The position numbers and the translations under genes were made by a program. Below the pieces are notes generated by a model. The model made no database searches. It was not told the origin of the DNA and was given only the letters and a program-made list of their open reading frames with translations. 64,000 nt of DNA from Blastococcus litoris (GTDB taxonomy: Bacteria > Actinomycetota > Actinomycetes > Mycobacteriales > Geodermatophilaceae), in the NCBI RefSeq assembly GCF_003075095.1, contig NZ_QCZF01000002.1, forward strand, positions 434,001 to 498,000. Direction: 5' to 3'. Positions within the stretch are counted from its first letter, which is position 1. The number at the start of each line of letters is the position of its first letter. Of this stretch, positions 25,685 through 44,005 are shown one piece after another.

Positions 25685-26458
25685 GTGCCTCGTGTCGCGA
25701 CGGGAGAGACGTCCCTGGCGCGCGCCGTCCGGATCCTCGAGTCGTTCACGCCCGACGAGCCCGAGCTCACCGTGACCGAGCTGGCCCGCCGGGCGGGGCT
25801 GCACCTCGCGACGGCCTCGCGCATCGTGGGCCAGCTCGTCGACCACGGCCTGCTCAGCCGGGGCCCGGACCGCGAGGTCCGCGTGGGCATCCGGATGTGG
25901 GAGCTGGCCTCGCGTGCCGCGCCCACCCGCTCGCTGCGCGACGCCGCGATGCCCTACCTCGAGGACCTGCACGCCGTGGTGGGCCACCACGCCCAGCTGG
26001 CGGTGCTGCACGGCGACGAGGTGATCTTCCTCGAGCGGCTGTCCGCGCGGGACGCCGTCGTCAACTACTCGCGGGTCGCCGGCCGGCTGCCGCTGCACAT
26101 CTCGTCGTCCGGCGTCGTCCTCATGGCCTACGGCCCGGCCGGGCTGCAGGAGCGGGTGCTCGCCCGGCCGCTCGAGAGCCGGACCCCGGCGACGATCACC
26201 GACCCGGCCCGGCTGCGGGCCCTGCTCGACCAGGTGCGGCGCACCGGGTACGCGCTGCTGCCCGGCCACGTGCACCCGGACGCCGCCGGCATCGCGGTGC
26301 CGGTCCGGGACGGCCTCGGGGAGGTGGTGGCCGCGCTGTCGGTGATCGTCCCGAACGACGCCGGCGCCGTGTCCGCGGTGCCGGCCCTGCTGGCCGCCGC
26401 CCGCGGGATCGGGCGTGCGCTGCGCGCGGCGGGGTCGGTCCCTACGCTGCCGGGATGA
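25685..26458 (+). CDS. IclR-family regulator, divergent from the P450 operon
   Basis: 257 residues from a GTG giving MPRVATGETSLARAVRILES. The winged helix includes LTVTELARRAGLHLATASRI and the effector domain includes HISSSGVVLMAYGPAGLQER and HPDAAGIAVPVRDGLGEVVA. The gap to the reductase gene is 79 bp and contains AGTGTG (25628-25633) and CACACT (25673-25678) as distant inverted arms. Likely regulator of the O-demethylase genes with p-anisate or 4-hydroxybenzoate as effector (inference). Its stop codon overlaps the start of a folate gene, tying P450 regulation to C1 metabolism. Confidence 0.88.
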   Translation: MPRVATGETSLARAVRILESFTPDEPELTVTELARRAGLHLATASRIVGQLVDHGLLSRGPDREVRVGIRMWELASRAAPTRSLRDAAMPYLEDLHAVVGHHAQLAVLHGDEVIFLERLSARDAVVNYSRVAGRLPLHISSSGVVLMAYGPAGLQERVLARPLESRTPATITDPARLRALLDQVRRTGYALLPGHVHPDAAGIAVPVRDGLGEVVAALSVIVPNDAGAVSAVPALLAAARGIGRALRAAGSVPTLPG

Positions 26459-27045
26459 CCTCCCCCGAGAACCCGGTCGTGGTCAAGGACGAGCTCCGCG
26501 AGGGGCTGCTGTTCCGCCGGCGGTCGCGCCCGGCCGCCGAGCGCGCCGCCGCGGCGGAGGCGGTGGCCGCCGCGCTGCTGGCGGGGTTGCGGGGTGCGGG
26601 CACGCTGGCCGCCTTCGTCCCCGACCCCTCCGAGCCCGGGGCCGGCACGTTGCCCGACGCCTACGCCGACCTGGGCGCGCGCGTCCTGCTGCCGGTCATC
26701 CCCGCGCAGGGGCGCATCCTCGACTGGGCGGTGCACGCCGGCGTGCTGGAGGAGGGCCGGTTCGGCCTGTCCCAGCCGGTCGGCCCACGGCTCGGTCCCA
26801 CCGCCATCGCCGAGGCCGACGCCGTCGTCGTCCCCGCGCTGGCCGTGGACCGTCACGGCATCCGGCTGGGCCGCGGCGGTGGCTACTACGACCGCGCGCT
26901 GGTGCACGCCCGGCCGGACGCCGTCCTCGTCACGGTGGTGTTCGACGACGAGCGGGTCGACGAGCTGCCGCGCGAGGCGCACGACCGCCCGGTGCGCGCG
27001 GTGGTGACGCCGTCGGGCGGCTGGCAGGAGCTCAGCGGCCGCTGA
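26455..27045 (+). CDS. 5-formyltetrahydrofolate cyclo-ligase
   Basis: 196 residues, the usual size, with the ATG overlapping the IclR stop. Family landmarks are the N-terminal ELREGLLFRRRSRPAAERAA, LLPVIPAQGRILDW and the signature LAVDRHGIRLGRGGGYYDRA (around residues 132-151), which binds ATP and folate. It converts 5-formyl-THF to 5,10-methenyl-THF at the cost of ATP, rescuing an inhibitory folate side product that accumulates when methenyl-THF flux is high. Its location inside the aromatic cluster fits heavy folate traffic from O-demethylation. The last 14 bp overlap the convergent hydrolase gene. Confidence 0.9.
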   Translation: MTSPENPVVVKDELREGLLFRRRSRPAAERAAAAEAVAAALLAGLRGAGTLAAFVPDPSEPGAGTLPDAYADLGARVLLPVIPAQGRILDWAVHAGVLEEGRFGLSQPVGPRLGPTAIAEADAVVVPALAVDRHGIRLGRGGGYYDRALVHARPDAVLVTVVFDDERVDELPREAHDRPVRAVVTPSGGWQELSGR

Positions 27046-27047
27046 GC
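27030..27047. repeat. 18-bp perfect palindrome shared by two convergent gene ends
   Basis: GCTCAGCGGCCGCTGAGC spans the last codons and stops of both the cyclo-ligase and the convergent hydrolase. Because of the symmetry, both proteins end in the same tetrapeptide, LSGR. It could serve as a short bidirectional hairpin in either transcript. Confidence 0.8.
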
Positions 27048-42261: not shown

Positions 42262-42604
42262 CGGCTGCCCCCTCTCGCGGTCGCGACCCCGCCACTCTGT
42301 CCGATGCCCAGGCCGTCCCGGAACGCGTCAAATGACCCGGAGAGGCCGTCATCCGACGCACGCCGAGCGGCCGGAACGGTGTGCGCAGGGTGACGGATGC
42401 CCGTGTGCCGGAGCACATCCGCCGCTCTACGCTGCAATCGACGATGTGGCGTGGGCCACTGGACAGGGCACGTCCGTGGTCTGCCGCGCACGACGGCGGA
42501 AACCGGCCTCCTGGGCCGGCCCGCCGCCGCGCGGCGGCCACCGGTCAGGCCACGGACCGGCTCCGCCGGCCCGCGGAAGGAACACCCGACGAGAACGGAC
42601 GGAC
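42262..42604. promoter_or_regulatory. 343-bp divergent promoter region between the MFS/desA-type operon and ligM
   Basis: GCGTCAAATGACCCG at 42325-42339 contains the palindrome GTCA-AA-TGAC and is the reverse complement, with one mismatch, of the element at 21620-21634 before the CocE-type gene. A possible -10 TACGCT lies near 42428-42433 for ligM, leaving a long GC-rich leader of about 170 bases. GGAAGGAACACC, upstream of the ligM ATG, supplies a Shine-Dalgarno-like stretch. No coding frame with family character was found. Confidence 0.45.
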
Positions 42605-44005
42605 ATGACTGCCAAGAACCTCCAGGAACTGCTCGACCAGACCGGCGACACCGTCGGCCTCCTGCGCAACTCCCAGCTGGGTGCGTACATCTACCCGGTC
42701 GTCCCGTCGGAGTTCACCAACTTCCGCCGGGAGCAGAAGGCATGGCAGGAGACCGCCGTGCTCTTCGACCAGACGCACCACATGTTCAACCTGTTCATGA
42801 AGGGTCCCGACGCCCTCAAGCTGATCTCGGACACGGGCATCAACAGCGTGGCCAACTTCCCGGTGGACATGGCCAAGCAGTTCGTCCCGGTCACCCCTGC
42901 CGGCAACGTCATCGGTGACGGCATCCTCTTCCACCTCGCCGAGGACGAGTACGTCTACGTCGGCCGCGCGCCGGGTGCGAACTGGCTGCAGTTCAAGGGC
43001 GAGACCGGCGGCTACGACGTCGAGATCCGCAACGACCCGCGCTCGCCGTCGCGGCCCTACGGCAAGGCCGTCACCCGCGACCTGTGGCGCTTCCAGATCC
43101 AGGGCCCGAACGCCTGGCCGATCATCGAGAAGCTGCACGGCGGCGACCTCGAGCAGCTCAAGTTCTTCCGCATGAGCACGATGAACATCGCGGGGGAGAC
43201 CGTCCGCACGCTGCGCCACGGCATGGCGGGCGCGCCCGGCCTGGAGATCTGGGGCCCGTACGAGAGCTACGACCGGATCCGCGAGGCGATCCTCGAGGCC
43301 GGCCGCGAGTTCGGCCTGGAGCCGGTGGGCTCGCGCGCCTACTCCACCAACACCCTCGAGTCCGGGTGGATCCCCTCGCCCCTGCCGGCCATCTACACCG
43401 GCGAGGAGCTCCGCCCCTACCGCGAGTGGCTCGGTGCCGACAGCTACGAGGCGACCAACGCGATCGCCGGCAGCTTCGTGTCCGACGACATCGAGGACTA
43501 CTACACCAACCCGTGGGACCTCGGGTACGGCTCGTTCGTGAAGTTCGACCACGACTTCATCGGCCGGGACGCCCTCGAGGCCCTCGACAAGGACGCGCAG
43601 CGGCGCAAGGTCACCCTGGAGTGGAACTCAGAGGACCTCGCGAAGCTGCTGTCCTCCCCGGTCGAGGGGGCGAAGTACCAGTTCTTCGACCTTCCCAACG
43701 CCAACTACGGCTCGTCCAACTTCGACAAGGTCATCGACGCCGACGGCACGGTCCTCGGCGTGTCCATGTTCACCGGCATCTCGGCGAACGAGAAGAAGGG
43801 CCTGTCGCTGGCCACCATCAGCCCCGACGTGCCCCACGGCGCCGAGGTCCGCGTGGTCTGGGGCGAGCCCGACGGCGGGAGCAAGAAGACCACCGTCGAG
43901 CCGCACGAGCAGTTCGAGGTCCGCGCGATCGTGAGCCCGGTCCCCTACGCGAAGATGGCGCGGGAGACCTACCAGGGCGGCTGGCGGACCGTCGGCAAGG
44001 CCTGA
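42605..44005 (+). CDS. ligM: Tetrahydrofolate-dependent vanillate/3-O-methylgallate O-demethylase, LigM-like
   Basis: 466 residues, nearly collinear with Sphingobium LigM (471). Shared segments are [140 protein letters not shown] and the C-terminal RETYQGGWR. The key residues His59, Arg120 and Tyr245 match LigM His60, Arg122 and Tyr247. The enzyme moves the methyl of vanillate or 3-O-methylgallate to THF, giving protocatechuate or gallate and 5-methyl-THF. It is transcribed alone, ending at an 18-bp hairpin, and divergent from the MFS/DesA-type operon. Confidence 0.96.

Follow-up and report, generated by a model that had tools for sequence, protein, structure and literature searches.

The closest described relative of the system considered here is found in Sphingobium SYK-6, an organism without a glycine cleavage system, where a MetF homologue oxidises the 5-methyl-tetrahydrofolate (5-methyl-THF) produced by the demethylase LigM, and where this pairing of LigM with a methylenetetrahydrofolate reductase (MTHFR) feeds biosynthesis; the abstract of the article makes no mention of folate-synthesis genes (PMC12585457). 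Where a folate-synthesis gene within a methyl-catabolic unit is concerned, the nearest known case is plasmid pCMU01 of Methylobacterium extorquens CM4, whose chloromethane unit carries metF2, folD, purU and a duplicate folC2, with no folP, pabB or pabC in the plasmid gene table (PMC3621897). LigM-type and DesA-like genes have been noted in actinobacterial metagenome-assembled genomes (MAGs) (PMC9296663). The subject of this report is a 64,000-nucleotide stretch of the genome of Blastococcus litoris, of the Geodermatophilaceae (contig NZ_QCZF01000002.1, positions 434,001 to 498,000; hereafter "the window"; source genome 4.63 Mb, 99.96% complete), in which a LigM-type gene shares an island with genes for both the recycling and the synthesis of THF. 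Like SYK-6, the window pairs a LigM-type demethylase with a MetF-type enzyme, but it adds pabBC and folP in the metF operon, plus folD, fchA and purU; pCMU01 differs in its substrate and methyl transferase, in being plasmid-borne, and in not being actinobacterial. The recycling part is already known from SYK-6, and the coupling to folate synthesis is the new element; no report of pabB or folP in LigM-type clusters was found in the literature, as partially covered through titles and abstract openings. The locus is likely, if by no means certainly, a demethylation island with recycling and folate-synthesis genes of its own, jointly switched.

The folate genes form a tight single-strand run, metF-folD-pabBC-fchA-folP-aldh, on the minus strand from 34617 down to 27978, with 4-base overlaps between pabBC and fchA and between fchA and folP. 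These genes, and those of the island that they accompany, are as follows:

33754..34617, minus strand: metF, divergent type, closest to structure entry 7xg9
32851..33711, minus strand: folD (NF010783, 344 bits, cut-off 333)
31032..32753, minus strand: pabB-pabC fusion, aminodeoxychorismate synthase component I plus lyase (TIGR00553, 343 bits, cut-off 328)
30397..31035, minus strand: fchA-like methenyl-THF cyclohydrolase (Pfam FTCD_C, 144 bits, cut-off 24.5)
29471..30400, minus strand: folP, dihydropteroate synthase (DHPS) paralogue (TIGR01496, DHPS, 296 bits, cut-off 163)
27978..29444, minus strand: aldehyde dehydrogenase (aldh), closing the tightly packed part of the folate operon (Pfam Aldedh, 427 bits)
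26455..27045, plus strand: 5-formyl-THF cyclo-ligase (TIGR02727, 130 bits, cut-off 85)
38368..39575, plus strand: ligA and ligB, protocatechuate 4,5-dioxygenase type (TIGR02792 and NF009902, above cut-off)
39624..40982, minus strand: predicted DesA-like THF-dependent O-demethylase, aligned to LigM 5tl4
42605..44005, plus strand: ligM, by family a vanillate/3-O-methylgallate O-demethylase (NF047885, 899 bits, cut-off 580)
55222..56094, plus strand: purU, formyl-THF deformylase (TIGR00655, 328 bits, cut-off 286)

A first-pass annotation of this DNA had described a one-carbon recycling module beside two O-demethylases, and gene calling and family searches recovered all the genes it named at or near their coordinates. 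The module is real: metF, folD, fchA and purU lie near LigM (purU 11.2 kb past ligM), and the cyclo-ligase, folP, the pabB-pabC fusion and purU each score above their family cut-off. Two of its assignments stood in part. LigM is a full-length equivalog match (structure entry 5tl4 at E 4e-215), but its companion at 39624-40982 fails both the DesA equivalog (NF047633; 546 bits against 800) and the LigM model (484 bits against 580); FchA passes Pfam FTCD_C but fails the stricter NCBIfam FchA equivalog (102 bits against 275). The window MetF is weak on general MetF models (60 bits against a cut-off of 294; Pfam 49.5 against 24), and its best solved relative, at E 2e-27 with the runner-up at 5e-12, is 7xg9, which we take to be the methyl-THF-oxidising MTHFR of SYK-6. 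PabBC combines Chorismate_bind with Aminotran_4 (class IV aminotransferase, 128 bits), the aldehyde dehydrogenase reaches no NCBIfam equivalog cut-off among the 25 matches listed, and the cyclo-ligase, on the strand opposite to the operon, overlaps an IclR-type gene. In the window FolP, the DHPS motif stretches align with 1eye. Sulfonamide resistance was rejected as a role for the cluster FolP, whose scores lie far under the Sul1-4 cut-offs, as was methyl-THF methyltransferase activity, which belongs to the same Pfam family, on the grounds of the DHPS equivalog score and motifs.

One line of evidence for a link between demethylation and folate synthesis comes from recurrence. A LigM/DesA homologue (E 1e-60) was found in 16 of 394 genomes of a class-wide draw, with pabB in five and folP in four of the neighbourhoods read, and in 31 of the 112 genomes of the Geodermatophilaceae, or 31 of the 96 of good quality. 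An additional folP (E 1e-70) is present in 20 of these 31 genomes versus one of the 81 family genomes without LigM (Fisher 2e-13), an association that none of 200,000 within-genus draws reached. The family holds 22 such copies, two of them in G483, and 20 of the 22 are found no more than 20 kb from ligM or desA when coordinates are compared by hand; a single folP placed at random would fall within 20 kb of ligM with a probability of approximately 0.009. In G395 the additional folP stands on a short contig that starts fchA-folP-aldh, in G403 no FolP other than that of the cluster matches at E 1e-70, and G418, the lone LigM-less genome with an additional folP, has this copy closing a glyA-sox-sdaA operon that is THF-linked too. 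Members of the PabBC clade (E 1e-60) occur in 27 of the 31 genomes versus 37 of the 81 others (Fisher 8e-5). By hand count, with the folP of G395 included through its separate contig, 24 of the 31 genomes have pabBC in their LigM/DesA loci, 21 have folP there, and 29 have at least one of the two; the co-occurrence that the first-pass annotation proposed to look for thus recurs in the family, as well as in a few other actinobacteria. Within G498, folC is inserted between folP and fchA. A chance neighbourhood was rejected on the placement probability, the within-genus draws and the intergenic position of the shared-sequence matches described below. The islands of two relatives carry a MetE-like gene, recognized by eye, beside purU (G390:C3:354627-355787 and G402:C1:2497462-2498625).

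A second line of evidence is provided by a sequence shared between upstream regions. The 15-base pattern CCRCGACRRWYGACG occurs exactly three times in the window, before metF, ligAB and purU, and a two-component system lies between the first two of these sites:

34805..34819, minus strand: operator-like site before the folate operon, exact CCRCGACRRWYGACG match, kept in the metF promoters of relatives
37208..37222, plus strand: operator-like site before the ligAB operon, exact CCRCGACRRWYGACG match, scoring 0.4 under a matrix derived from metF promoters
55095..55109, minus strand: operator-like site before purU, exact CCRCGACRRWYGACG match, scoring 13.6 under the same matrix
34976..36529, plus strand: sensor histidine kinase, PAS/GAF/HisKA_3 (domain search)
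36529..37188, plus strand: LuxR/NarL-type response regulator (Response_reg and GerE)

The pattern was derived from the window's own sites, so that only other genomes test it. Over 0.91 Mb of LigM/DesA regions of the family, window and G390 excluded, it has 38 matches, versus 0-2 per set in five Markov sets; all 38 are intergenic, in sequence of which 9.5% is intergenic, and 37 of them precede ligAB (19), the kinase/metF pair (8), purU (9) or desA (1). No match was seen in 0.26 Mb of other regions, where none was expected either, and 66 loci from other families yielded seven, all intergenic, versus 0-4 expected. Exact 9-11-mers common to the promoters gave nothing clear, but alignment of orthologous promoters succeeded, revealing that metF is preceded by a conserved block, CCGCGACGATTGACGTACGG, and ligAB and purU by similar ones. 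A scoring matrix built from 19 of 20 metF promoters gives 27.3 for the window's own metF site and medians (shuffles in brackets) of 18.9 (-2.1) for purU, 11.5 (-1.1) for ligAB and 12.1 (0.7) for ligM, with a weaker signal before desA (2.0; shuffles -2.2) and no raised scores before livG, gntR, iclR or aldh. The upstream regions of pabBC itself are marginal at p 0.049, where, as for all p values from the matrix, related sequences are treated as independent, and the 1% control threshold is inflated by control promoters that belong to the same islands. Since the upstream regions of the folate operon, purU and ligAB hold this sequence in common, their co-regulation is likely; that the adjacent response regulator binds it is our guess.

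Additional information regarding the origin of these genes was obtained from phylogeny. A FolP tree of 66 rows was calculated with eight housekeeping rows from other families added and with folP2 and one divergent Amycolatopsis row excluded, an earlier tree that included folP2 and other long rows having been unstable. Nineteen of the 22 cluster FolPs of the family form one clade (support 98/91), apart from a grouping (95/81) of the 22 family housekeeping FolPs along with the sox-operon copy of G418 and the cluster copy of G111; other cluster FolPs (the second G483 copy and those of Klenkia, Streptomyces, Pseudonocardia and G324) lie outside both groups, in part on long branches. Actinobacteria are also known to have a second gene of the folP family, the folP2 of high-GC Gram-positives, which clusters with cell-wall genes (PMC1971073); the cluster FolP is nearer to housekeeping DHPS than to folP2. 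In a PabB tree of 45 rows, made with a quick method, 22 cluster PabBCs and that of G397 form a clade (SH-like approximate likelihood ratio test, SH-aLRT, 99), and the other cluster PabBs are intermixed with non-cluster ones, with at least four label changes forced by strong branches. The linkage of pabB to ligM therefore changed several times, gain and loss not being separable in this count. The nonsynonymous divergence (pN) of the window's cluster folP is 0.128 to G417, of the same genus, and 0.110 to G498, whereas the housekeeping folP gives 0.053 and 0.123; the cluster copy being no nearer to its own genus, the island has apparently been transferred from one genus to another. The ratios of nonsynonymous to synonymous substitution (dN/dS; 0.14-0.36 for cluster folP, 0.25-0.39 for cluster pabBC) indicate purifying selection.

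The coupling extends, in varied layouts, beyond the family. The best 80 LigM loci were taken from a scan of named genomes, 67 of them outside the Geodermatophilaceae; six of the 67 have pabB and/or folP, and two more have folE, within approximately 10 kb. One of the six is a Phycicoccus MAG, where the match (44%) stands without a family-model check. The gene order is pabB-desA-metF-purU-folD-ligA-ligB in Amycolatopsis deserti, pabB-desA-metF-purU in A. bartoniae, and ligA-ligB-folP in two Streptomyces; Pseudonocardia sp. ICBG1293 has both pabB and folP in its LigM locus, and, within the family, Klenkia has ligA-ligB-folP-desA-metF-folD-purU. Nine of ten sampled proteins pass a FolP, PabB, FolC or FolE model, while the tenth, the FAD-GcvT protein of G418, reaches no equivalog cut-off. 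Further folP copies beside one-carbon genes were observed in ICBG1293 (folP-metF-folD, L282) and in A. deserti (folP-folD-fchA with a chorismate-binding gene approximately 4 kb off, L277), and folE stands beside ligM copies in two Microbacteriaceae, Leucobacter tardus (L200) and Agromyces sp. H66 (L240). In Nocardioides sp. PD653-B2 (L170), which belongs to another family, a LigM 93% identical to that of the window has ligAB and metF nearby but neither pabBC nor folP; it is likely a recent transfer.

Clusters of another kind, of sarcosine/dimethylglycine type, resemble the island in demethylation to THF and in the nearness of folD, purU and sdaA or glyA, and differ from it in that a putative FAD-GcvT protein or sarcosine oxidase replaces LigM and ring cleavage; those of G418, G439 and G503 also have folP, folC and pabBC. 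In these three genomes (L144, L148, L154) a LigM-less THF cluster combines FAD-GcvT, fchA, folD, folP, sdaA, purU, a folC-like gene and pabBC, its folP matching at 47-48%. The additional folP of G418 ends an operon of glyA-soxBDAG-sdaA type (L145, 9709-18648), in which soxG and sdaA were assigned by NCBIfam and the remainder by eye; this folP adjoins broken chorismate-binding pieces, with formamidase genes near.

The copy numbers of these genes in the window's own genome bear on the idea of a dedicated folate pool, put forward in the first-pass annotation, under which folP, folD and pabBC should have further copies elsewhere. Such copies exist for folP, of which there are three of DHPS type in addition to a separate MetH-sized frame (the window copy, one beside folE, folB and folK as judged by eye, and one folP2-like, 43% identical), for folD (three copies), and also for metF, for which two canonical copies and one weak match stand beside the divergent copy of the window. 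A PF00425 search found three genes, pabBC and two others, and neither of these qualifies as a PabB, the one on C9 sitting with trpC, trpB and trpA, by eye, and the one on C3 having menaquinone gene neighbours. As the only PabB found in the genome, pabBC should also carry out housekeeping p-aminobenzoate (pABA) synthesis, and is not dedicated. A wiring of folate supply to catabolism is favoured by recurrence and by the shared upstream sequence. It is of note that 48 of the 112 family genomes lack a PabBC-clade match at E 1e-60, and that a PF00425 scan of seven of them (G416, G419, G420, G402, G456, G395, G434) found TrpE/MenF score classes only, MenF context being observed for five and TrpE context examined in the window's genome only; such Geodermatophilaceae may be pABA auxotrophs or use another pABA route.

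Several other observations weigh against an island with its own folate synthesis. G416 and G456 carry LigM with neither pabBC nor folP in the cluster, so that these genes are not strictly needed, and G402, which has folP, retains just a 42-residue remnant of pabBC. The genomes are related, hence not independent. Within the window, the best matrix scores before ligM (7.1) and ligAB (0.4) compare with a 90% point of 6.6 among controls. Outside the family, the queries used found no folP, pabB or folE within approximately 10 kb in 59 of the 67 loci, some of them short, and folE, which is often held to set folate flux, is found in two of the 67.

The rival explanation that survives best, although we judge it unlikely, is that pabBC and folP are ordinary housekeeping genes that have ended up next to a mobile catabolic island, the proximity being of no particular metabolic significance. 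Besides the single PabB of the window's genome, it can draw on the presence of PabBC at unrelated places in relatives without LigM, and on G397, which has no LigM and retains pabBC and the cyclo-ligase, as if the remainder had been lost, beside the EF-G2 gene that in G390 and G402 borders the island on its purU side. The case of G397, which also counts against the preferred reading, suggests that pabBC is kept when the island is lost, in agreement with a general role. Against this rival, the cluster folP is an additional copy from a separate lineage, G482, G491 and G479 have the cluster plus a second PabB, several different layouts occur in other families, and the upstream sequence is shared. 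A second rival, which we regard as improbable, invokes stress by pABA analogues: hydroxybenzoates, being similar to pABA and produced or imported in large amounts, would hinder DHPS, and the cluster would bring extra pABA synthesis and a tolerant DHPS variant. The recruited genes are indeed mostly those that make or use pABA (pabBC in 24 and folP in 21 of 31), not folE or folC, and the cluster FolPs are a separate lineage, but folP, folC and pabBC also surround FAD-GcvT and sarcosine-oxidase enzymes, whose substrates are presumably not aromatic. That the main task of the module is to provide biosynthesis with one-carbon units, with folate genes serving general growth, is very improbable: the window MetF is closest to 7xg9 and the SYK-6 pair is so described (PMC12585457), but the relative G390 has gcvP approximately 28 kb from ligM, purU and fchA suggest that surplus one-carbon units are discarded, and pabBC and folP are left unexplained.

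Under the preferred reading, that of a demethylation island with its own folate supply, the island would break down methoxylated aromatic acids. The CYP199-like P450 would take off the para-methyl group, while LigM and the DesA-like enzyme would pass other methyl groups to THF, one for one, and LigAB, followed by later enzymes, would open and break the ring. The divergent MetF would reoxidise methyl-THF, FolD and FchA would yield 10-formyl-THF, and PurU would free formate and THF; pabBC and the folP paralogue of the same operon would supply additional THF, and it is proposed that they lie in this operon because THF is consumed one for one. The folate operon, purU and ring cleavage would be switched together through a common operator, for which the neighbouring two-component system is the probable reader. 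The activities are those predicted from protein families, and from the gene arrangement we infer the identity of the regulator, induction and a larger folate pool, folate synthesis presumably being an answer to the demethylation load. The coupling of folate synthesis to O-demethylation itself is real and recurrent, and probably co-regulated.

The remaining genes of the island would serve uptake and the other catabolic steps:

23371..24582, minus strand: CYP199-like cytochrome P450 (best PDB match 9g9q, 'Cytochrome P450 CYP199', E 1e-200; CYP199A4 chains at E ~1e-150)
24628..25614, minus strand: P450 reductase-like, 2Fe-2S domain (Pfam Fer2, 47 bits; NCBIfam reductase families below cut-off)
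25685..26458, plus strand: IclR/PcaR-type regulator (TIGR02431, 134 bits, below the cut-off of 285)
37354..38371, plus strand: alpha/beta hydrolase and muconolactone isomerase-like gene, head of the ligAB operon (family searches)
44259..49015, plus strand: branched-chain-type ATP-binding cassette (ABC) transporter, five genes (binding protein Peripla_BP_6; other names by eye)
49784..51561, plus strand: ligK-type aldolase and 4-oxalomesaconate tautomerase (NF006731 and NF033377, above cut-off)
53310..54356, plus strand: amidohydrolase (Pfam Amidohydro_2; no NCBIfam match)

The ligAB operon spans 37354-39575, and the lower-pathway genes occupy 49784-54356, including the amidohydrolase, which we take to be LigJ-like. 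The transporter probably serves aromatic acids. CYP199-type P450s carry out para-O-demethylation of benzoates, and the P450 with its reductase (23371-25614) adjoins the THF route, similar genes being present in the clusters of relatives too.

Demethylation through THF depends on a folate pool that is both large and quickly turned over; the question of how bacteria provide this pool has seldom been raised. The link of pABA and folate synthesis to O-demethylation indicates which genes should accompany LigM pathways on their transfer to production hosts, and it would explain some extra actinobacterial folP copies as catabolic rather than redundant. More tentatively, and at somewhat less than an even chance, de novo folate steps may have been built repeatedly into the substrate-controlled demethylation regulons of actinobacteria, for methoxyaromatics as for sarcosine- and dimethylglycine-type substrates, the vitamin being made to order as a stoichiometric reagent; in B. 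litoris, where the only pABA synthase gene found lies in such an island, the very ability to make folate may depend on a catabolic cluster.

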